Origin: Thermasporomyces composti
GTDB lineage: Bacteria > Actinomycetota > Actinomycetes > Propionibacteriales > Actinopolymorphaceae
Assembly (NCBI RefSeq): GCF_003386795.1
Contig: NZ_QTUC01000001.1
Span: 1,984,001 to 2,048,000, forward strand
Direction: 5' to 3'
DNA: 64,000 nucleotides
Shown in pieces: positions 14,165-27,708 of the stretch. A model generated the notes under the pieces. It made no database searches and was not told the origin of the DNA. It saw only the letters and a program-made list of their open reading frames with translations. A program made the translations under genes and the position numbers. Position 1 is the stretch's first letter, and the number at the start of each line of letters is the position of its first letter.

Positions 14165-14214
14165 CCACTGACCCGACAGGCTTCGCCGCGACCGGCCGTT
14201 GGAGCGCCTCATGA
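14161..14214 (+). CDS. Possible 17-aa coupling peptide
   Basis: MTTDPTGFAATGRWSAS, preceded by AAGGGA. Its TGA overlaps the ATG of the 2Fe-2S subunit (ATGA). It could couple translation of the operon to upstream ribosomes, or be chance. An alternative is that it is an N-terminal piece of the small subunit lost to a frameshift. Confidence 0.3.
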   Translation: MTTDPTGFAATGRWSAS

Positions 14215-14687
14215 CGGCTGAGGCGGCGCCGCCAGCCGCGGCCACGGAAGCCGTCCAGCTCACCCTCAACAGCCAGCGCTACGACATCGACGCCCCTGTG
14301 GGTCGAACCCTCGCGGAGGTACTCCGGGAGGACCTCGGGCTCACGGGCACCAAGGTGGCGTGCGGGGAGGGGCACTGCGGAGCATGCACCGTCCTCGTCG
14401 ACGGCAAGCCCACCCTCTCCTGCATCACGCTGGTCCACAGCGTCGACGGCACCGAGATCACCACGATCGAAGGCTTGCGCGACCACCCGCTGGTCGACGC
14501 GTTCGTCCGGTGCGACGCCCTCCAGTGCGGGTTCTGCACACCGGGGCAGATCGTGTCCGCCGCCGCGCTCGTGGCGGAGAAGCCGCAACCCAGCCGTGAG
14601 GAGATCCGGCACGCGATGGCGGGGAACATCTGCCGATGCGGCGCCTACCCGAAGATCGAGGAGGCGATCCTGTCATGGCGCGGCTGA
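14211..14687 (+). CDS. Molybdenum hydroxylase, 2Fe-2S subunit
   Basis: 158 aa electron-transfer subunit of a xanthine oxidase-family enzyme, cytoplasmic. The plant-type cluster is held by Cys 51, 56, 59 and 71 (CGEGHCGACTVL and LSC); the second cluster by Cys 106, 109, 141 and 143 (CGFC and CRC). ATG at 14211 with TTGGAG upstream is preferred over a TTG 12 bases earlier. It overlaps the large-subunit start by 13 bp. Order small-large-medium is an actinobacterial variant of the coxSLM/xdh layout. The substrate (aldehyde, purine or aromatic) cannot be told from this subunit. Confidence 0.93.
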   Translation: MTAEAAPPAAATEAVQLTLNSQRYDIDAPVGRTLAEVLREDLGLTGTKVACGEGHCGACTVLVDGKPTLSCITLVHSVDGTEITTIEGLRDHPLVDAFVRCDALQCGFCTPGQIVSAAALVAEKPQPSREEIRHAMAGNICRCGAYPKIEEAILSWRG

Positions 14688-16963
14688 TCAAGACCGAGAA
14701 GGAAGTCGAGGGCCGCTACGAGACCGTCTGGCTGGTCGTCGAGGAGGACAGCCTCGACCAGTGGCCGGCTGGTCCGCGCGACGTCGTAGGGAAACCCGCG
14801 GTCCGCAAGTCCGCCCGTGCCCGCGCCCGCGGTGAGGCGAGGTACACCGCCGACGTGCGGCTGCCGGGGATGCTGCACGCGGCCATCCTGCGCTCGCCCT
14901 ACGCGCACGCTCGCGTCCGACGCATCGACTTGTCCCGGGCGCTCGCCGCACCCGGTGTCCGTGGCGCGATCGGGCCTGGCGACGCGCCCGAGCTCGACGA
15001 GGTCGCCGGCTACCACGGCGCCCCGGTCGCCGCGGTCGCCGCGGATTCCGAGCGCGAGGCCCGCGCCGCGCTCAAGCTCATCGACGTCGACTGGGAGGTC
15101 CTCGAGCCGGTCCTCGACCCCGACGAGGCGGTTCGGCGCGGGCAGCTGGTGGGTGAGCCACGGCGCGTCGAGCGAGGCGACGTCGACGCCGCCCTCGCCG
15201 AGGCCGACGTCGTGATCGAGTCCGAGTACCGCACACAGACCGTGCTGCACAACGCCTTGGAGACCCACCAGTCGGTCTGCGTGTGGGAGGGGGAGCGGCT
15301 CGTCGTCTACACCTCCACCCAGGACATCTGGGGCGTCCGGAACGCCATCGCCCGCACCCTCGACCTGCCGACGGACCAGGTGCGGGTCGTCTGCGAGTAC
15401 ATGGGCGGCGGCTTCGGCGCGAAGAACGAGCCCGGCCACTACACGTTCGTCGCCGCCGAGCTGGCACGGCGAACCGGTCGTCCCGTCCGCTGCGCACTCA
15501 CCCGCCGGGAGGAGAACCTCGCGACCGGCAACCGCAACGCGACGATCCAGCGGCTCACGGTCGGCGCGCGGCGCGACGGCACGATCGTGGCGTTGGCCGG
15601 CGAGTTCGTGGCCAGCCTCGGCTGGGACGGCTGGATGGCGTTCACCGCCGGCCCCATGCACGGCCTCTACGCGTGCCCGAACGTCCGGACCGTCGAGTAC
15701 GGCGCCAAGCTCAACACGCCGCCGATGGCGGCGTTCCGCGCGCCCGGGTTCGTCGAAGGCACGTTCGGCCTGGAGTGCCTGATCGACGAGCTGGCGGCCA
15801 AGCTCGACATGGATCCGCTGGAGCTGCGCCGGCGCAACTACGCCGACCGTGACCCGGCGACCGGTGCCCCGTACTCGGCGAACCAGCTCCTCGAGTGCTA
15901 CCGGCGCGCGGAGAAGCACTGGGCGCGGCGCCACGAGGTCCGCGCACGCAGTGAGGGACCGTGGCGGCGTGGAGTCGGTCTCGCCAGCCAGATCTGGTAC
16001 GGCGGAGGCGGCCCACCGGCGTACGCGTGGGTGCGGGTCGGGTCCGACGGCCGCGCCACCGTCATCACCGCCATGCAGGACATCGGGACCGGCACGCGCA
16101 CCGCGATGTCGCAGATCGCGGCCGAGGAGCTCGGCTTCCCCTTGGACCGGGTGGACGTGGTGCTCGGCGACACCGACCGCGGACCCTACGCCGTCCCCGC
16201 CGCCGGCTCCTCCACGACGCCCTCGATGGGGCCGGCCGTTCGCGCCGCGGCAGCCGACGCCCGCCGCCAGATCCTCGACATCGCGGCACAGCGGTACGAG
16301 CGCCCGGCGGAGTCACTGCGGATCCGGGAGGGCCGGATCGAGGCCTCCGACGGCGAATCCTGGCCGGTCGAGGAGGTCCTCGGCCTGCTCGGCAACGCCC
16401 AGATCCTGGGCACCGGGGCCCGCGGCCCCAACCCGGCCGGCATGGCCGTCCACACGTTCGGGGTGCAGGTCGCCGAGGTGGCGGTCGACATCGAGACCGG
16501 CGAGGTCCGGGTGGAGCGACTGGCGGCCATCCACGACGTCGGACGGGTCATCAACCCGCTCGGGGCGTCGAGCCAGCTCGAGGGCGGCGTCATCCAGGGC
16601 ATCGGGCACACCCTGTCGGAGGAGCGGCTCGTCGACCCGACGAGTGGCCAGGTCCTCACCCAGACCCTCGACGCCTACCGGATGCCGACGATCGCCGACG
16701 TTCCCGAGATCGTCACCGAGCTCGTCGACGTCCCCGACCCCAACCTCACCAGCCTCGGCGCGAAGGGCCTGGGCGAGCCGCCGATCATCCCTGTCGCGGC
16801 CGCGATCGCCAACGCCATCCGCGACGCGACGGGCGCGGCCGTCCACGAGCTGCCGATCGACCGCGAGGAGATCCTCCGGGCACTCCGCGAAGCGGCCGAC
16901 CGGCGAGCGGGAGCCCTCGGCGAAGGAGCGAAGGAGCGCCATGAGACTCCGGCGACTGTCTAG
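14675..16963 (+). CDS. Molybdenum hydroxylase, molybdopterin-binding large subunit
   Basis: 762 aa, the usual length. The N-terminal a/b hammerhead begins about residue 48. GGGFGAK (244-250) and AAFRAPG contact the pterin cofactor, and the catalytic Glu is in GLGEPP (about 701). There is no signal peptide, unlike periplasmic aldehyde oxidoreductases. ATG at 14675 with GGAGG upstream lies inside the small-subunit gene. Lacks the AYRCSFR-type loop of CO dehydrogenase, so it is not CO dehydrogenase. Neighbouring sugar-acid genes suggest an aldehyde or carbohydrate-derived substrate, which is inference only. Confidence 0.93.
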   Translation: MARLIKTEKEVEGRYETVWLVVEEDSLDQWPAGPRDVVGKPAVRKSARARARGEARYTADVRLPGMLHAAILRSPYAHARVRRIDLSRALAAPGVRGAIGPGDAPELDEVAGYHGAPVAAVAADSEREARAALKLIDVDWEVLEPVLDPDEAVRRGQLVGEPRRVERGDVDAALAEADVVIESEYRTQTVLHNALETHQSVCVWEGERLVVYTSTQDIWGVRNAIARTLDLPTDQVRVVCEYMGGGFGAKNEPGHYTFVAAELARRTGRPVRCALTRREENLATGNRNATIQRLTVGARRDGTIVALAGEFVASLGWDGWMAFTAGPMHGLYACPNVRTVEYGAKLNTPPMAAFRAPGFVEGTFGLECLIDELAAKLDMDPLELRRRNYADRDPATGAPYSANQLLECYRRAEKHWARRHEVRARSEGPWRRGVGLASQIWYGGGGPPAYAWVRVGSDGRATVITAMQDIGTGTRTAMSQIAAEELGFPLDRVDVVLGDTDRGPYAVPAAGSSTTPSMGPAVRAAAADARRQILDIAAQRYERPAESLRIREGRIEASDGESWPVEEVLGLLGNAQILGTGARGPNPAGMAVHTFGVQVAEVAVDIETGEVRVERLAAIHDVGRVINPLGASSQLEGGVIQGIGHTLSEERLVDPTSGQVLTQTLDAYRMPTIADVPEIVTELVDVPDPNLTSLGAKGLGEPPIIPVAAAIANAIRDATGAAVHELPIDREEILRALREAADRRAGALGEGAKERHETPATV

Positions 16964-17807
16964 CCTGTCCGAGCCCGCGCTCGCCGAGGCGGGACTCGGC
17001 AACGGCTCGGTGCCGCTGGCGGGCGGCACCGACCTCGTCCCGCTGCTGCGTGACGGGCTGCTCACCGCCGACACCCTCGTCGACGTGCGTCCCGTGGTGC
17101 CACGTGGCGTGACGCCGTACGACGGCGGCGTCCGCATCGGGGCCGGCACCACACTCGCGGAGCTGGAGCACGCGGCCGAGGACGCCGTTCCGGCCGCGTT
17201 GCGGGAGGCGTGCCGGCTCGCGGCGTCCCCGCAGGTTCGAGCCATGGGTTCGATCGGCGGCAACCTGCTGCAGGCCACCCGCTGCTGGTACTGGCGGCTG
17301 GGTCACGCCTGCTGGCTGGCCGGCGGTGAGCGGTGCCTGGCTCGGGACGGCCGCAGCGACGAGCACGCCATCTTCGGCAACGCCCACTGCGGCTCGGCGC
17401 ACCCGTCCGACATCGCCGCGGCGCTGCTGGCGCTGGGGACCACGGTGCGGACGACGCGACGCGAGCTGCCGCTGGCCGAGCTGTACCGCCTGGCGACGGA
17501 GGACGACCGGAGCGTCACGACGCTCGAACGCGGTGAGCTCCTCCTCGAGCTCGACGTGCCGAGGCCCGACGCCAGCACCTACCTGAAGGCGATGGACCGC
17601 AAGCGGTACGCCTTCCCGATCGTCGGGGTCGCGGCGGCGCGGTTCGGCGGGGACGTGCGTGTCGCGCTGGCCGGCGTGGCGCCGATCCCGTGGTCCCTCG
17701 ACACCGACGCGGGGCTGACCGACGCGACACCGCTGCCGGGCTCGGCGTTCAAGGTGCAGGTGGCGGAGGCGCTGGTGCGGCGGGCGCGCGAGGCGGTCAC
17801 CGGCTGA
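16941..17807 (+). CDS. Molybdenum hydroxylase, FAD subunit with extra Cys cluster
   Basis: 288 aa. FAD motifs LAGGTDLVPLL (27-37) and SIGGNLLQ (104-111) are clear. Immediately after comes a Cys-rich insert with Cys 115, 124, 132 and 150 (TRCWYWR, ACW, ERC, AHC then HPSD). This pattern is seen in PaoB/YagS-type and 4-hydroxybenzoyl-CoA reductase FAD subunits, where it binds a 4Fe-4S cluster. The ATG at 16941 (AAGGAG upstream) overlaps the large subunit by 23 bp, so all three subunits form one translationally coupled operon. No XdhC-type maturation gene is present. Confidence 0.92.
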   Translation: MRLRRLSSLSEPALAEAGLGNGSVPLAGGTDLVPLLRDGLLTADTLVDVRPVVPRGVTPYDGGVRIGAGTTLAELEHAAEDAVPAALREACRLAASPQVRAMGSIGGNLLQATRCWYWRLGHACWLAGGERCLARDGRSDEHAIFGNAHCGSAHPSDIAAALLALGTTVRTTRRELPLAELYRLATEDDRSVTTLERGELLLELDVPRPDASTYLKAMDRKRYAFPIVGVAAARFGGDVRVALAGVAPIPWSLDTDAGLTDATPLPGSAFKVQVAEALVRRAREAVTG

Positions 17808-17848: not shown

Positions 17849-18895
17849 TCAGCTGGCCGCGCCGGACGTGACGACGTCGAGGAGGGCCTGGATGTAGCCG
17901 ATGGCGTGGGCCCTCCCTCGGTACCCGTAGCCGTCGTCGTTCACCAGGCCCGGCGTGTGGTCGTCGAGGATGAAGCCGTCGAACCCCACTCGGTGCAGGG
18001 CCTGGATGACGCGCAGCGGCGAGTAGTTGCCCTCGCCTAGGAAGCACTCGCGGAAGCGCGGCATCGTCCCGGCCACGTCGCGGAGGTGGACGTAGAGGAT
18101 CTTCCCGCGGCGGCCGAGACGCTCGATGGCGTCCAGGACGGCGGGCTCGCCACCCATCTCGGAGACGGTGCCCAGGCACAGCTCGATGCCGAGGGCGGGG
18201 CTGTCGACGATCGTCGCGGCCCGGACGAGGGCGTCCACGCTGGTCAGGATGCGTGCGACGCCGTGGAGCTCCTCGGCCGGTGGGTCGTCGGGGTGGAAGC
18301 CGATCCGGATGCCGGCCTCCTCCGCGGCCGGGACGATGCTGCGCACGAAGTACTCGACGTTCGCCCACAGCTCGTCGTGGCTGATCGGGACTTCGTTGCC
18401 GAGGTGCTCGCCGCGCACCCACGAGTCCTTGGCGTCGGCGACGCGCCGGTCGCGGCGGGCTACCCAGACCTCTTCGAGCCGGGAGGGGTCGGAGGCGACG
18501 TCGTGGTCGTAGATCGACACAGTGGCGCCGCCACGACCGTAGGGCCCGACGTCGGTCCGCCACACCGACTGGAGCATGACGTTGAGGCCGAGGATGGGGA
18601 CGCCCGCGCGGCCCATATTGGTGATGGTGGCTCGGACGTTCTCGATTTGTTCGTCTCGCCCGGGCAGGCCGAGCAAGACCTTGTCGTAGAAATGGTTCGG
18701 AAGGTTCTCGAACGCCTCGATCCGGAGTCCGAACTCAGCGACCCGGTCGACGAGACGCTTGATGTCCTCGTATTCCCAGCGGTGGTCGCCGGGCAAGTCG
18801 GGTGTGTTGAACTGAACCCCCTCGACACCTAGCTGTGCGGCGAAGGCGAGGTACTCGTCGGTGGCGACGGGTGACTGTCCGACCGCGACGCGCAT
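17849..18895 (-). CDS. uxuA: Mannonate dehydratase-like TIM-barrel enzyme
   Basis: About 348 aa of the UxuA/xylose-isomerase-like TIM barrel class, predicted to dehydrate D-mannonate to 2-keto-3-deoxygluconate. Visible family features: GVQFNTPDLPG near the N-terminus, GIRIGFHPDDPP, GIELCLGTVSEMGG and VHLRDV in the metal-binding strands, and FILDDHTPGL near the C-terminus. It is tail-to-tail with the hydroxylase operon and divergent from the Nramp-like transporter. Start is ATG 18895 or GTG 18901; AGGGGAG suits the latter better. No UxuB or KdgK gene is near, so it may act on a related sugar acid. Confidence 0.82.
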   Translation of the reverse strand: MRVAVGQSPVATDEYLAFAAQLGVEGVQFNTPDLPGDHRWEYEDIKRLVDRVAEFGLRIEAFENLPNHFYDKVLLGLPGRDEQIENVRATITNMGRAGVPILGLNVMLQSVWRTDVGPYGRGGATVSIYDHDVASDPSRLEEVWVARRDRRVADAKDSWVRGEHLGNEVPISHDELWANVEYFVRSIVPAAEEAGIRIGFHPDDPPAEELHGVARILTSVDALVRAATIVDSPALGIELCLGTVSEMGGEPAVLDAIERLGRRGKILYVHLRDVAGTMPRFRECFLGEGNYSPLRVIQALHRVGFDGFILDDHTPGLVNDDGYGYRGRAHAIGYIQALLDVVTSGAAS

Positions 18896-18973
18896 TCCCA
18901 CGGGCGCTCCCCTCACTGGTACCGCCTAAGGCCACAGCGATTCACGCGAGGCTCTTGCCTCGTGAGCTGGGAC

Positions 18974-19001
18974 GCTAGCATGCTAGCCCGCTAGATAGCG
19001 G
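18974..19001. promoter_or_regulatory. Two adjacent palindromes between uxuA and the Nramp-like gene
   Basis: GCTAGCATGCTAGC (18974-18987) is a perfect 14-bp palindrome, directly followed by CCGCTAGATAGCGG (18988-19001), a 6+6 inverted repeat. Sitting in the divergent promoter region, they look like paired operator half-sites for a local (for example GntR- or LacI-type) regulator. No such regulator is adjacent. Confidence 0.5.
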
Positions 19002-19128
19002 ATAGCAGAGATACAGAAGGCGAGCGGCGGACGGTCGAGCCGGACACCATTCCGCACTGGCGACGAGTCATCCGAACGCGGCAGGCATTCGACGCCCTGG
19101 GATGGTGAGCACGACGTGAGGAGTGGCC

Positions 19129-20550
19129 ATGGTAGGAGAGGCGAGCGCGGCGGCGCACCCACACGCCCCACAGGTTGACCCGTACCGGCTGACGACCGAG
19201 GGCATCAAGGAGCCGCCCACCGGCTGGTGGCAGAGCCTCCGTTACCTCGGTCCCGGTCTCATCCTCGGCGCGGCGATCGTCGGCGCCGGTGAGCTGATCG
19301 CCACGACCGCCCTCGGAGCACGAGCGGGCTTCGCCCTGCTGTGGCTGGTGATCTTCAGCACCTTGGTCAAGGTGGCCGTCCAGATCGAGCTCGCCCGGTG
19401 GACGATCTCGACCGGCCAGCCGGCGCTCACCGGCTACAACAAGGTCCCGCCGAAGGTGGGCCGCGTCGGGTGGGTCAACATCCTGTGGATCGTCTTCGCG
19501 CTGTCGAAGGTGGTGCAGACCGGTGGTGTCGTCGGCGCCGTCGCGGTGGCGTGCAGCGTGCTGTATCCCCTGGGCGGTCCACCGCTGGGGTTCACGTCCC
19601 TCGCCACGTGGACGGTCATCGTCGTCGCCATCACGGTCGCGGCGTTGTTCTCCAACAAGTACGGCCTGATCGAGCGGGTGGCGGTGCTGTTGGTGGTGCT
19701 CTTCTCGCTCGCGACGGTCGCCATCGCCGTCGGCCTGCCACTCACACCGTTCGCCTACGACGTCGGCGACATCGCGAGCGGCTTCACCTTCGGCATCCCA
19801 GCGGGCACGCTCCCGGTTGCTCTCGCGATGTTCGGGCTCACCGGCGTCTCGGTCGACGAGATCACCAGCTACCCGTACTGGTGCATCGAGAAGGGGTACG
19901 CCCGCTGGACCGGGCCCAACGACGGCAGTGCGGACTGGGAGCGTCGCGCCAAGGGCTGGATCAAGGTCATGCAGCGGGACGCCATGCTGTCCTGGGTGGT
20001 CTACACGGTGACCACGATGGCGTTCTACGTCATGGGCGCGGCCGTCCTGCATCCCCAGGGCCTGGTCCCCGAGGGCAACGAGGTCATCACCACCCTGACC
20101 CGGCTCTACACCGACACGCTCGGCGAATGGGCGCGCATCGTCTTCCTGGTCGGCGCCATCGCCGTGCTCGCCTCGACGCTGTGGGCGGCGACGCCCGCCT
20201 GGTCGCGGATGTACGCCAACGTGCTCAGCTGCGCCGGCGTGTTCGACTGGACGAACTCGCGGGCCCGCCAGCGCTGGATTCGTGGCTTCATCGTGGCGCT
20301 GCCGATCATCTGGGGTATCGCGTACCTTTTCGTCCAGTCCCCGGTCATCATGATCATGATCGGCGGGATCAGTGGCTGCATCTTCCTCTTCGCCGCGGTC
20401 ATCGCCGTGTGGTATCTCCGCCGCACGGAGATCGATCCCCGCGTCAAGGCAAGCTCGCTCTTCACCGTCGCTCTCGCGATCAGCAGCGTGGCCATCGCTC
20501 TCGCGGGCGTCTACACGATGCTTGACGCCTTGGGCTACTCCATCGACTGA
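19129..20550 (+). CDS. Nramp-fold transporter lacking metal-ligand motifs
   Basis: 473 aa with about 11 hydrophobic helices and an N-terminal cytoplasmic tail. It aligns by pattern to Nramp/MntH: GPG opens helix 1. The metal-binding DPGN is replaced by GAGE (52-55), and helix 6, normally carrying MPH, reads GLTGVSVDEITSY (236-248). The Asp, Asn, Met and His ligands for Mn/Fe are thus all missing, and transport of a different solute is likely. ATG with GAGGAG six bases upstream is chosen over GTG 19123. It is divergent from mannonate dehydratase and ends at a strong terminator, so it is a single-gene unit. Confidence 0.85.
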   Translation: MVGEASAAAHPHAPQVDPYRLTTEGIKEPPTGWWQSLRYLGPGLILGAAIVGAGELIATTALGARAGFALLWLVIFSTLVKVAVQIELARWTISTGQPALTGYNKVPPKVGRVGWVNILWIVFALSKVVQTGGVVGAVAVACSVLYPLGGPPLGFTSLATWTVIVVAITVAALFSNKYGLIERVAVLLVVLFSLATVAIAVGLPLTPFAYDVGDIASGFTFGIPAGTLPVALAMFGLTGVSVDEITSYPYWCIEKGYARWTGPNDGSADWERRAKGWIKVMQRDAMLSWVVYTVTTMAFYVMGAAVLHPQGLVPEGNEVITTLTRLYTDTLGEWARIVFLVGAIAVLASTLWAATPAWSRMYANVLSCAGVFDWTNSRARQRWIRGFIVALPIIWGIAYLFVQSPVIMIMIGGISGCIFLFAAVIAVWYLRRTEIDPRVKASSLFTVALAISSVAIALAGVYTMLDALGYSID

Positions 20551-24502: not shown

Positions 24503-25435
24503 TCAGGAACGCGGATTCCCCACGTCGTCGGAGCGAAGCGCGTCCGCCAACCGCCCACCCGCTCCGGCGAGCATCGCGCGGGCGGTCGGCGCGTCGACAC
24601 CGCGCTCGAGCATGAGCACCGCCGTCTTGACGTCACGGTCGGCCGCCTCCAGCGTCCGACGCGCGACCTCCCGGTCGACTCCGGTGATCTGCCGAACGAT
24701 GCGCACCGCGCGGTCGACCAGCTTGTCGTTGACGACCCGCAGGTCGACCATGAGGTTCCCGTAGGTCTTCCCGAGCCGCACCATCGAGATCGTCGAGATC
24801 ATGTTGAGCACCAGCTTCTGCGCGGTGCCGGCTCGGAGCCGGGTCGACCCGGCGAGGATCTCCGGCCCCACGGGGACCTCGATCGGATAGTCGACCATGG
24901 CCGACAGCTGCGTGTCGGCGTTGCAGCTCACACCGACGGTCAGGGCGCCACGACGCCGACCCTCCTCCACCGCGCCCAACACGAACGGCGTCCGCCCGCT
25001 CGCCGCGACGCCGACGACGGCGTCGCCTTTCCCGATCCCTCGCTCGGCCACGGCCTGCGCGCCACCGGGACGGTCGTCCTCCGCGCCCTCGACGGCGCCG
25101 GTGACGGCGACCGGGCCTCCCGCGATGATCGCCTGCACCTGCTCGGGCGGGGTGTTGAACGTCGGCGGGCACTCGGCCGCGTCCAGGACGGCGATCCGCC
25201 CGGAGGTGCCCGCCCCCACGTACACCAGCCGACCACCGGACGCCAACAGCGGCACGATCGCGTCGATGGCGGCGCTGATGGCGGGGAGTGCCCGGCGCAC
25301 CGCGTGCGGCACCTCGGCGTCGGCGGCGTTCATCCGCTGGGCCAGCTCCAGCGTCGAGAGCTGATCGATGTCGCCGTACCGCGGGTCGGCCTGCTCCGTG
25401 ACGAGTGCGGCGAAAGGCGAGTGGGCCTCGCTCAC
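24503..25435 (-). CDS. murQ: N-acetylmuramic acid 6-phosphate etherase
   Basis: 310 aa, full family length. It cleaves the lactyl ether of MurNAc 6-phosphate to GlcNAc 6-phosphate and D-lactate in the cytoplasm. SIS-domain signature GAGTSGR (74-80), catalytic Glu in DAAECPPTF (about 88), and the conserved EVPVGPEILAGSTRLRAGTA block in the second half. GTG start with GGAGG seven bases upstream. Divergent from the NamZ-type muramidase across a shared operator/promoter region, and regulated with it. The supplier of MurNAc 6-phosphate (MurK/AnmK kinase or PTS) is not in the window. Confidence 0.95.
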   Translation of the reverse strand: MSEAHSPFAALVTEQADPRYGDIDQLSTLELAQRMNAADAEVPHAVRRALPAISAAIDAIVPLLASGGRLVYVGAGTSGRIAVLDAAECPPTFNTPPEQVQAIIAGGPVAVTGAVEGAEDDRPGGAQAVAERGIGKGDAVVGVAASGRTPFVLGAVEEGRRRGALTVGVSCNADTQLSAMVDYPIEVPVGPEILAGSTRLRAGTAQKLVLNMISTISMVRLGKTYGNLMVDLRVVNDKLVDRAVRIVRQITGVDREVARRTLEAADRDVKTAVLMLERGVDAPTARAMLAGAGGRLADALRSDDVGNPRS

Positions 25436-25455
25436 CGGGCCTCCTTTGAAGCTTA

Positions 25456-25498
25456 TTGACGTTATGTAATGGAGGAAGGTAATTTACCAACCTACCAC
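25456..25498 (+). promoter_or_regulatory. Promoter and operator 1 of the MurNAc regulon
   Basis: TTGACG (25456-25461), an 18-bp spacer and TAATTT (25480-25485) form a promoter whose -10 lies inside the inverted repeat GGTAATTTACC. The 21-bp block 25478-25498 recurs with 19 of 21 identical bases at 27826. On the minus strand TTGGTA and TACATA, spaced by 16, could drive murQ. The likely regulator is the adjacent RpiR-family protein. Confidence 0.7.
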
Positions 25499-25551
25499 GG
25501 ACCGCACGCTCGCGCCGCTGGCGCGGATCTCGCTCACCGGAGGGCAGCCTC

Positions 25552-26751
25552 GTGCAGCACGGCACCCAGCGAACCGTCACCGGGGTGGAACGCCTGTGCG
25601 CCGACCCCTCGCTGGTCCCGGGCCGACGCCTGGGGTTGGTGACCAACTACACCGGGGTGATGCCCGACCTCACCACGAACGTGGCCGCCCTGCAGGCCGC
25701 CGGCGTGCCGCTCGTGGCGCTGTTCGGCCCTGAGCACGGCCTGCGCGGCAGCGCCCAGGCGGGCGAGAGCGAGCCCGACGACCACGACCCCGACAGCGGC
25801 TTGCCGGTCTTCGACACCTACCGTCACAGCGGCGCGGACCTGGAGGCGCTGGTCGTCCGGTCCGGCGTGGACACCCTGCTCTACGACCTGCAGGACATCG
25901 GCACCCGCTTCTACACGTACGTGTGGACGATGTACGACCTGCTCGTCGTGGCGGCTCGGCTCGACATGCCCTTCGTCGTCCTCGACCGACCCAACCCGGT
26001 GGGCGGACTGGCCGTCGAGGGCCCCCTCCTCGACCCGGCCTTCGCCAGCTTCGTCGGGCGCGCCCCGATCCCGCTCCGGCACGGGCTGACCGTCGGTGAG
26101 CTCGCTCGACACCTCAACGAGACCGCGATCCCGCGCGAGGCGGGACGGCCGGCGCGGCTCGAGGTCGTGACCATGACCGGCTGGCAGCGGTCCTCCTACG
26201 CCGACCAGACCGGGTTGCCGTGGGTCATGCCGTCGGTCAACATCCCCACGCTCGAGAGCGCCCTCGTCTATCCGGGCACCGGCCTGTTCGAGGGCACGAA
26301 CCTCTCCGAGGGCCGGGGGACGACCCGGCCGTTCGAGCTGATCGGCGCGCCGTACGTCGACCGCCGCCTCGCGCCCGCGCTCAACGAGCTCGGTCTCCCC
26401 GGCGTGCGGTTCCGGGACGCGACGTTCACCCCGACCTTCCACAAGTACGCCGGCCGCCAGTGCCGCGGCGTCCAGGTGCACATCACCGACCGTGAAAGCT
26501 TCGCGCCCGTGCGGACCGCCCTGGCGATGCTCCACTGCCTGCGCACGCTGTATCCGGACGACTTCGGGTGGCGCGTCGCCGAGGACGAGAGCGCGAGGCA
26601 CCCCTACTTCATCGACCTGCTCTGGGGCTCCGACACCCTGCGCCGGACGCTCGACGCCGGCCAGGACCCCACCACACTGCTGCCCTCGACCGCTCCCGGC
26701 CACGCCCGTCCTCACGAGTGGGCAGGTGAGCAGGTCATCCTCTATCACTAG
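25552..26751 (+). CDS. namZ: NamZ-type exo-beta-N-acetylmuramidase (DUF1343)
   Basis: 399 aa. Family features: GLVTNYTGV near residue 28, LFGPEHGLRG (58-67, with the proposed catalytic Glu), YDLQDIGTRFYTY, RPNPVGG and YPGTGLFEGTNLSEGRGTT. Characterised NamZ enzymes release MurNAc from the non-reducing end of peptidoglycan fragments. Unlike the secreted Bacillus and Tannerella proteins, this one has no signal peptide, so it probably cleaves imported MurNAc-GlcNAc inside the cell. GTG start with GGAGGG upstream. Leads the plus-strand part of the salvage regulon. Confidence 0.9.
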   Translation: MQHGTQRTVTGVERLCADPSLVPGRRLGLVTNYTGVMPDLTTNVAALQAAGVPLVALFGPEHGLRGSAQAGESEPDDHDPDSGLPVFDTYRHSGADLEALVVRSGVDTLLYDLQDIGTRFYTYVWTMYDLLVVAARLDMPFVVLDRPNPVGGLAVEGPLLDPAFASFVGRAPIPLRHGLTVGELARHLNETAIPREAGRPARLEVVTMTGWQRSSYADQTGLPWVMPSVNIPTLESALVYPGTGLFEGTNLSEGRGTTRPFELIGAPYVDRRLAPALNELGLPGVRFRDATFTPTFHKYAGRQCRGVQVHITDRESFAPVRTALAMLHCLRTLYPDDFGWRVAEDESARHPYFIDLLWGSDTLRRTLDAGQDPTTLLPSTAPGHARPHEWAGEQVILYH

Positions 26752-26799
26752 TCCGAGCCACCCGCGCGCACGCGCACGCCGAGCGAGGAGGGGCGGCCG

Positions 26800-27708
26800 G
26801 TGAAGGAGGACACGGCGACGCGGCAGCCACGCCCCGCGGACGTCCGCAAGCACGTGCGCGCCATCCTGCCGCGGCTCGCGCGCGCCGAGCGCCGGGTCGC
26901 CGAGGCGCTGCTGGCGAACCCGTCCCTCGTCGTCGAGAAGACGATCACAGAGGTCGCCCGGGCCTGTCAGACCTCCGAGACCACGGTGGTGCGGTTCTGC
27001 CGCGCGGCGGGTTTCCGCGGCTACCCCGACCTCCGGCTGGCGCTCGCCACCGAGCTGGGTCGGGACACCGCCCGGCGGTGGGAGGAGCTCCTCACCGGCG
27101 CCGACATCGACCGTGACGACCCGCTCGCGCAGCTGGTCGCCAAGGTGGCGCGCACCGAGGCGGCCGCGATCGAGGACACCCTCAAGCAGCTCGACCTCGA
27201 CCAGCTCGACAAGGTCGTGACCGCGCTCATCCAGGCCCGCCGCATCGCCCTCTTCGGGCTCGGCGCCAGTGGCTTCGGCGCGCAGGACCTCCAGCAGAAG
27301 CTGCTCCGCATCGACCGGATGGCGTTCGTCGTGGCCGATCCGCACCTGGCCTTGGCCACCGCGGCGCTCCTGACCAACGGTGACGTGGCGATGGCCTGGT
27401 CGCACAGCGGCCAGACCCGCGAGACCATCGCCTGTCTGGCCAAGGCTCGCGAGCAAGGCGCCACCACCGTCGCCGTCACCAACGACCCGCACTCACCGCT
27501 CGCCGCCCAGGCCGACCTGCTGCTGACGACGGCGGCGCGCGAGACGCGCTTCCGAACGGGCGCCATGGCCAGCAGGATCGCCCAGCTCGCGGTGGTCGAC
27601 TGCGTCTACCTGGCTGTCGCCCAGCGCACCTACGACGCCACGATGGCGGCCTTGGCGAAGACCTTCGACGCCGTGCACGACCCGGATAGGTCCGGCAACG
27701 CTTGGTAA
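26800..27708 (+). CDS. RpiR/MurR-family regulator
   Basis: 302 aa. The N-terminal HTH_6 domain (about 15-95, core TITEVARACQTSETTVVRFC) is followed by a SIS domain (about 135-275) with LFGLGASGFGAQD and AWSHSGQTRETI, which bind phosphosugars. Related MurR repressors respond to MurNAc 6-phosphate. The GTG start has GAGGAGGGG upstream, 48 bp after namZ, so it is cotranscribed with it. It most likely controls both nearby operator copies, including its own. Confidence 0.92.
   Translation: MKEDTATRQPRPADVRKHVRAILPRLARAERRVAEALLANPSLVVEKTITEVARACQTSETTVVRFCRAAGFRGYPDLRLALATELGRDTARRWEELLTGADIDRDDPLAQLVAKVARTEAAAIEDTLKQLDLDQLDKVVTALIQARRIALFGLGASGFGAQDLQQKLLRIDRMAFVVADPHLALATAALLTNGDVAMAWSHSGQTRETIACLAKAREQGATTVAVTNDPHSPLAAQADLLLTTAARETRFRTGAMASRIAQLAVVDCVYLAVAQRTYDATMAALAKTFDAVHDPDRSGNAW

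Follow-up and report, generated by a model that had tools for sequence, protein, structure and literature searches.

We analysed a 64,000-nucleotide stretch of the Thermasporomyces composti genome (henceforth the window), which encodes at 19129..20550 on the plus strand a 473-residue Nramp-related transporter (P0001) from a subfamily with the motif GxGE in helix 1. SLC11/Nramp is the textbook family of metal transporters. The GxGE proteins have an Nramp fold by prediction, have lost the canonical metal and proton residues, form one clade and are placed repeatedly among genes of acid-sugar metabolism. The best-supported explanation, drawn from gene context and mostly from operon logic, is that the clade imports acid sugars, to which we assign a probability of about 0.6.

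The window transporter has a predicted Nramp fold

The open reading frame is intact and runs from an ATG at 19129, preceded by a purine-rich ribosome site, to a stop at 20550, with an in-frame GTG upstream at 19123. Its product belongs to Pfam Nramp (PF01566; 67 bits, cut-off 29.8) and matches NCBIfam Nramp_1 (NF037982; 115 bits, cut-off 50), and it scores far under the cut-offs of the NCBIfam MntH models (29.4 of 430 and 25.9 of 272.5). The solved structures closest to it in sequence are distant Nramps (best E about 1e-7). An AlphaFold2 model built from a 50-row alignment (predicted local distance difference test score, pLDDT, 81.1; predicted template modelling score, pTM, 0.82) matched DraNramp best (Z 38.3, root-mean-square deviation 2.5 Å over 377 residues, 19% identity), with human NRAMP1, BfraNramp and EleNRMT (Z 35) among the further top matches. 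Helix 6 is broken in the model at residues 238-241, as expected for the Nramp fold. An Nramp/LeuT-type fold is thereby a firm prediction, as is the loss of motifs described below, and the call of an Nramp-fold protein at this position in the first-pass annotation, made from the sequence alone, is borne out by the reading frame, both family matches and the structural match to DraNramp.

The canonical metal site is replaced throughout the subfamily

Relatives were collected in a genome scan (84,980 species); of the 559 stretches that encoded one, the best 80 (L058-L137) were retained. Together with the window, a second copy and three relatives these make up 85 discovery loci. Another 40 non-duplicate loci, seven plasmids included, were kept out of sample (42 before L262 and L279 were dropped as duplicates), giving 125 subfamily loci in all. 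Clustering at 85% identity left 70 representatives, 19 of them from out-of-sample loci.

Helix 1 of the window transporter reads IVGAGELI. In a profile alignment its GAGE (codons 52-55, 19282..19293, plus strand) stands opposite DPGN of MntH, as does GSGE elsewhere in the subfamily; all 70 representatives carry one or the other and none carries DPGN. Since G52, G54 and E55 are each invariant (70/70), the motif change is not chance drift, and Glu55 occupies the place of the MntH Asn ligand. Helix 6 reads FGLTGVSVDEITSY, and its broken segment, GLTGVSVDE (codons 236-244, 19834..19860, plus strand; by alignment and model), lacks MPH. When the subfamily was aligned with other paralogs by MAFFT, M-P-H fell opposite G241-A242-D243 of the subfamily consensus, to within one residue; the site is V-S-V-D-E in the window and V-G-A-D-E in the consensus, and the canonical MPH was not found. 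Acidic residues prevail at positions 243 (57 Asp, 8 Glu, 5 Gly) and 244 (67 Glu, 3 Asp). In helix 3, the position of the canonical Glu (E134 of DraNramp) is Ile, Val, Leu or Met in 70 of 70, never Glu, while codon 127 (19507..19509, plus strand) encodes a Lys shared by 64 representatives (Phe in 5, Gln in 1). Helix 8 contributes a hydroxyl pair, Ser at position 349 in 65 (Lys in 5) and Thr at 350 in 69 (Val in 1).

By alignment, then, the Asp, Asn, Met and His ligands are all replaced, as the first-pass annotation had claimed when it pointed to GAGE in place of DPGN, to the missing MPH and to the loss of all four Mn/Fe ligands. Its description of a transporter without any metal ligands went too far: Glu55 never varies, and an acidic residue (Asp or Glu) stands at position 243 in 65/70 and at 244 in 70/70. 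Judged from these alignments, the canonical metal site is gone, yet the site holds conserved carboxylates and a conserved helix-3 lysine. Five rows (L248, L249, L292, L293 and L294) form a basal GxGE clade, and the five F127, five G243 and five K349 rows equal it in number; L249, the member printed in the alignment, has all three. These matching counts suggest that in the basal clade the lysine has perhaps moved between helices 3 and 8. Two basal members, L292 and L293, adjoin an L-idonate 5-dehydrogenase-like gene (221 and 229 bits of a 469 cut-off), and L248 adjoins a xylose-isomerase-like TIM barrel.

The distribution of the GxGE clade is patchy. Matches at E of 1e-20 or lower occur in 24 of 394 genomes of the class, seven of which, the window's own included, exceed 490 bits. 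At E of 1e-80 or lower we found matches in 8 of 396 genomes in the phylum, in 43 of 249 in the family of the L115 genome and in 23 of 248 in the order of the L127 genome, and in the class to which the Pseudomonas relative (L119) belongs no copy beyond the known one turned up (1 of 274 genomes, same threshold).

GxGE genes recur in acid-sugar gene clusters

Several kinds of catabolic cluster hold a GxGE gene, with Pfam and NCBIfam matches bearing out the enzyme names in selected members. In Actinophytocola (L117) the operon reads N-ManD-PfkB-UxuB-like (N, the Nramp gene) with a divergent GntR-type gene, and this ManD exceeds the NCBIfam D-mannonate dehydratase equivalog cut-off (708.7 of 550). 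The combination of ManD, PfkB and UxuB returns at L115 and L118 and, out of sample, at L283 and L284, and ManD with a UxuB-like gene, without a strong PfkB match, at L105 and L114. At L119 the gene lies within DHDPS-FeADH-OtnK-PdxA-2-hydroxyacid dehydrogenase-N-DeoR; L122 is of the same kind, and an OtnK-PdxA fusion is found near the Nramp gene in Brevibacterium (L127, by Pfam). L063 has IlvD-N followed on the same strand by OtnK and LtnD-like genes, with GntR and UxaA on the opposite strand. A pairing of Nramp and UxaA was seen at L058, L062 and L237, and L260 reads MR/MLE enolase-IlvD/EDD-KDPG aldolase-N-aldehyde dehydrogenase. Among the seven plasmids, three agree with an acid-sugar context by NCBI annotation: those of S. 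albus and Streptomyces sp. NBC_00564 (PdxA-OtnK beside AKR-aldolase-PGDH-N) and that of Rubrobacter indicoceani (N-UxaA-GntR). Neighbouring reading frames came from a GC-bias gene caller and some are spurious; the names Tct, GntR, DeoR, LacI, SIS, AraC, TPP enzyme and amidohydrolase were assigned by eye.

We measured enrichment independently of the gene caller, with a panel of tblastn seeds scored at 100 bits or more within 7 kb and frozen before the later loci were collected. The core panel comprised ManD, UxuA, UxuB, UxaA, IlvD/EDD, OtnK, PdxA and LtnD, to which the extended panel added 2-hydroxyacid dehydrogenase, DHDPS and HpcH aldolase. As controls we used 58 loci of other PF01566 paralogs, all drawn from the genomes of discovery loci and none from out-of-sample genomes: the 20 best-scoring paralogs (set A; DPGN read directly in 7, with L181 not DPGN, and His at the MPH position in 13/20), 20 that are mostly GxGD (set B) and 18 that are mostly GPGFITQT (set C, from which we removed L226, identical to the L119 locus, and L227, a GTGD anchor with an adjoining GxGE copy). 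A core enzyme was present at 29/85 discovery and 12/40 out-of-sample loci versus 3/58 controls, the out-of-sample excess having p = 0.0012 by Fisher's test with loci taken as independent though they are related. With the extended panel the counts were 35/85, 19/40 and 5/58 (p = 2.2e-5 for 19/40 versus 5/58). Sets A, B and C contributed 0/20, 3/20 and 0/18 core positives and 1, 4 and 0 extended ones. After clustering, 25 of the 70 representatives had a core enzyme and 35 an extended-panel one, and the nearest extended-panel gene lay on the strand of the transporter in 46 of 54 loci.

In a tree with the controls, a quick build that gave warnings on long control rows, the 70 representatives formed one clade on a long branch with support of 100 (Shimodaira-Hasegawa-like approximate likelihood ratio test, SH-aLRT). 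Within it, a mannonate-type clade (L114, L115, L117 and L118) and a 15-row clade of mostly tetronate-type or EDD contexts each had support of 100. Both are contained in the 31-row clade (support 95) to which the window belongs, and there an extended-panel enzyme accompanies 24 of 31 rows, the window included, and a core enzyme 16 of 31. By parsimony the core label, present in 25 rows and absent from 38, changed at least 12 times on the tree, gain and loss being indistinguishable; the association is thus not a single inherited accident.

The first-pass annotation had singled out the uxuA-like gene divergent from the window transporter (17849..18916, minus strand). It proposed a tree of the GAGE proteins with a survey of uxuA neighbours, and took a neighbourhood that is not conserved as grounds for refutation. 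The tree gave one clade, and the idea of a conserved pair of uxuA-like gene and transporter had to be abandoned: the uxuA seed matched at the window only, 1 of 125 loci. Two relatives, G001 and G005, hold a transporter 65-66% identical to that of the window, and their UxuA-family matches (43% identical) are located elsewhere. The recurring feature is the pathway class, kept in a third to half of the loci via non-homologous enzymes, and not the uxuA-like gene itself. The earlier notion of an organic, sugar-acid substrate accordingly draws its support from gene context at out-of-sample loci against Nramp paralog controls, and the narrower guess of a hexonate from the ManD-PfkB-UxuB operons, which point to the hexonate branch.

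An organic substrate has precedent in the Nramp family

A transporter of this fold in organic-acid catabolism is not the new role that the first-pass annotation took it for. PxpT of C. glutamicum, an Nramp-family protein (TCDB 2.A.55), is necessary for growth on 5-oxoproline, and YcsG is cited likewise for B. subtilis (PMC13274462). These are Nramp-family secondary transporters encoded, like many GxGE proteins, in a catabolic operon, and they are needed for use of the organic acid of that operon (PMC13274462). They represent a separate type, to which set C probably corresponds by gene context: helix 1 there is GPGFITQT-like, helix 6 is GGTVGGY in the four sequences printed, and Asn stands at the helix-3 Glu position in 18/18. 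With seeds taken from the C loci themselves, 17 of 18 (L208-L225) lay within 7 kb of pxpA, pxpB, pxpC or D-glutamate cyclase, PxpA, CT_A_B and the cyclase being identified by Pfam/NCBIfam. In contrast, 0 of 125 GxGE loci lay near pxpA, pxpB or pxpC and 1 of 125 near the cyclase, which sets them apart from the PxpT/YcsG clade; set B had 0/20 and set A one locus with pxp genes, L182. In a search for a direct sequence link from the C type to YcsG, the fragment matched no PDB sequence. For an acid-sugar member of the family we found no precedent in the open-access literature searched, in which no paper among the top-ranked matches joined Nramp with acid sugars.

The evidence on this precedent is disputed. 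YcsG has been reported as a Mn importer and renamed MntG, a polar effect not being excluded for the older result (PMC10448178). MumT has also been reported as a Mn importer, and its operon contains urea carboxylase and allophanate hydrolase genes (PMC5050338). In gene make-up, this A. baumannii mumTLUHC operon (Nramp, urea carboxylase, allophanate hydrolase; PMC5050338) resembles the pxp operons, and its phenotypes might conceivably owe something to 5-oxoproline use.

Canonical Nramps (MntH, DraNramp, BfraNramp; clades A, B and C) share the LeuT-type fold with the window protein, DraNramp being its best structural match; unlike them, the GxGE clade lacks DPGN, MPH and the helix-3 Glu, and many of its copies lie in catabolic operons. 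EleNRMT resembles the window protein as an Nramp fold without canonical ligands. The 'Nramp-related proteins' of a 2026 BfraNramp preprint are the same broad assembly, paraphyletic and devoid of both motifs (PMC12873925); the excerpted text treats them in a metal-transport frame, without gene-context analysis (PMC12873925).

Proposed acid-sugar import and its alternatives

If the clade imports acid sugars, the Nramp product would be the importer of its operon, and its substrates would be aldonates, such as mannonate-like hexonates, or tetronates, that feed the host catabolic operon. The substrate would occupy the place of the metal in MntH, between helices 1 and 6, both of them broken. Its hydroxyls, or a coupling cation, might be contacted by Glu55 and the acidic pair 243/244, and its carboxylate could pair with Lys127 of helix 3, or perhaps with Lys349 of helix 8 in the basal clade. 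As to the coupling ion, the canonical helix-3 Glu is absent, and S349 and T350, the hydroxyl pair of helix 8, would leave room for a sodium site resembling Na2 of LeuT. For the window copy the likeliest substrate would be a hexonate or related sugar acid processed by the divergent UxuA-family dehydratase, and this acid might arise outside the cell or from the neighbouring molybdenum hydroxylase.

A number of observations weigh against acid-sugar import. The panel was picked after the discovery loci had been viewed, and the out-of-sample comparison alone is free of that; among clustered out-of-sample representatives only 4/19 had a core enzyme and 8/19 an extended-panel one. No core enzyme was found at 84 of the 125 loci (41 have one), among them 8/8 of Pseudoroseomonas and 14/15 of Saccharopolyspora, and set B includes core positives of its own (L191, L194 and L200). 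Four of the seven plasmids (two Skermanella, Roseomonas and Microscilla) have no acid-sugar genes; the Microscilla copy follows a GH43 glycosidase gene, and the Roseomonas marmotae copy (L239, 4426-11410) lies downstream of a 2,3-dihydroxybenzoate siderophore cluster. Other transporters are also encoded at some of the loci, of the Tct type at L090, L092 and L112 (by eye) and SLC13 in Skermanella. Of the partner enzymes compared with NCBIfam, ManD alone exceeds the cut-off for an acid-sugar step. The UxuB-like (321.8 of 603) and LtnD-like (275.7 of 350) proteins score under theirs, as do OtnK against the D-threonate kinase model (170 of 450) and UxaA against that for galactarate dehydratase (402 of 730.85). 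For PdxA of L119 the cut-off exceeded is that of the general vitamin-B6 PdxA model (366.3 of 290.35) and not that of the D-threonate one; the exact substrates of the partner enzymes are therefore not fixed by these scores.

The chief rival, which we regard as unlikely, is a divalent metal importer (Mn, Fe or Mg) that supplies the metal-dependent dehydratases and kinases of the operon through ligands rebuilt from Glu55 and the helix-6 acidic pair. Many acid-sugar enzymes of these operons need metals and several of the partners are metalloenzymes, so similar surroundings would be expected of a metal supplier too, and the carboxylates at the site are invariant or nearly so. EleNRMT, a family member without the canonical ligands, carries Mg2+ (PMC8806188; PMC12873925), and the Mn-accumulation data for MumT (PMC5050338) and YcsG (PMC10448178) likewise speak for metal over acid sugars. 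On the other side, 38 of 39 genomes searched hold at least two PF01566 matches with the GxGE copy counted, many including a high-scoring one, and the 20 best-scoring paralog loci themselves lack the acid-sugar context. A private metal supply is also not obviously needed by operons of NAD-linked 2-hydroxyacid dehydrogenases and sugar kinases. NrmT genes occur in association with mgtE-like genes and M-box riboswitches (PMC4072509); unlike them, the GxGE genes gave no Rfam match at gathering score in 7 loci and none at E up to 1 in the window region, mgtE not having been searched for.

A second rival, unlikely as well and placed by us behind metal supply, is that the protein carries a different organic acid or a small polar solute, its partner in the window being the molybdenum hydroxylase and the UxuA-like gene a chance neighbour. 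Three genes of the xanthine dehydrogenase family, all on the plus strand, converge on the UxuA-like gene and may be pathway partners: a 2Fe-2S subunit (14199..14687; Pfam/NCBIfam), a molybdenum-cofactor subunit (14636..16963 as listed, likewise by Pfam/NCBIfam, the true start probably lying slightly downstream) and a probable FAD subunit (16941..17807, named by eye). The large subunit occurs within 7 kb at 15/85 discovery and 6/42 out-of-sample loci (the latter count including the two duplicates later dropped) versus 2/58 controls. The single uxuA pairing in 125 loci also favours such a carrier, as do further contexts with SIS-PfkB-LacI (L025), SLC13 and GH1 genes. Against it, Saccharopolyspora accounts for 13 of the 15 discovery cases, with the gene on the opposite strand; at L060 and in the window, hydroxylase gene and transporter share a strand. 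The intergenic region between the divergent UxuA-like and transporter genes (212 bp) moreover contains a perfect 14-bp palindrome (18974..18987), a possible operator, and a palindrome as long was seen in 39 of 2000 shuffles of that region; the arrangement looks like shared control.

The UxuA-like neighbour itself matches PF03786 at 180.6 bits and aligns over most of its length with solved mannonate dehydratases (3ban, E = 2e-37). Its HPDDPP, Cys, His-x-Arg and Asp-His align with 3ban and 1tz9; we take the HPDDPP, Cys, His and Asp-His motifs to be the metal ligands and catalytic residues of mannonate dehydratase. Both NCBIfam models for mannonate dehydratase score it below their cut-offs (135.7 of 191; 91.8 of 199.55), so that of the earlier label the UxuA family and divergent orientation hold, and the enzyme is best described as mannonate dehydratase-like.

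Least probable, and in our view very unlikely, is symport of a metal-aldonate complex, in which the acid sugar would enter as a Mg2+, Mn2+ or Ca2+ chelate, with its metal bound by the acidic residues and its sugar by others: this would reconcile the acid-sugar operons with the carboxylate conservation and with the mixed findings on YcsG and MumT (Mn or 5-oxoproline), but aldonates are weak chelators at neutral pH.

Consequences and further observations

All seven plasmid copies are annotated 'Nramp family divalent metal transporter'. If GxGE proteins carry acid sugars, such annotations of the clade are wrong, and some ManD/UxuB, IlvD and OtnK/PdxA pathways gain an importer. The origin of Nramp metal selectivity would become testable with two substrates on one scaffold, and the dispute over YcsG/MntG and MumT (Mn versus organic acid) would be affected. 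More tentatively, and with somewhat less than even confidence, we suggest that the non-canonical Nramp branches (PxpT-type for 5-oxoproline, GxGE for acid sugars, and GTGD near RraA, IlvD or tetronate genes) are not exceptions within a fold for metal transport but largely organic-acid permeases, from which canonical metal transport maybe arose via DPGN and MPH. The GTGD/GAGD types are possibly further organic-acid clades. Paralogs of these types adjoin RraA-like (L191, by Pfam), TPP-enzyme, IlvD or amidohydrolase genes (L199 and L202, by eye), and the one at L227, which has a GxGE copy nearby, belongs to a tetronate-type cluster.

The T. composti genome encodes a second GxGE copy, 66% identical and about 102 kb from the window copy (L025, 9844-11238). 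It clusters with PfkB, PhyH (dioxygenase), AraC, LacI and SIS genes (PfkB and PhyH by Pfam, the others by eye), in a layout partly shared with the relative L027, and looks like part of a separate sugar pathway. Within the window, positions 24503-27708 hold an exo-N-acetylmuramidase (NamZ), an RpiR-type regulator and a reading frame (24503-25435, minus strand) that resembles a MurNAc-6-phosphate etherase; with the etherase named by eye, we read this segment as a cell-wall sugar recycling cluster.

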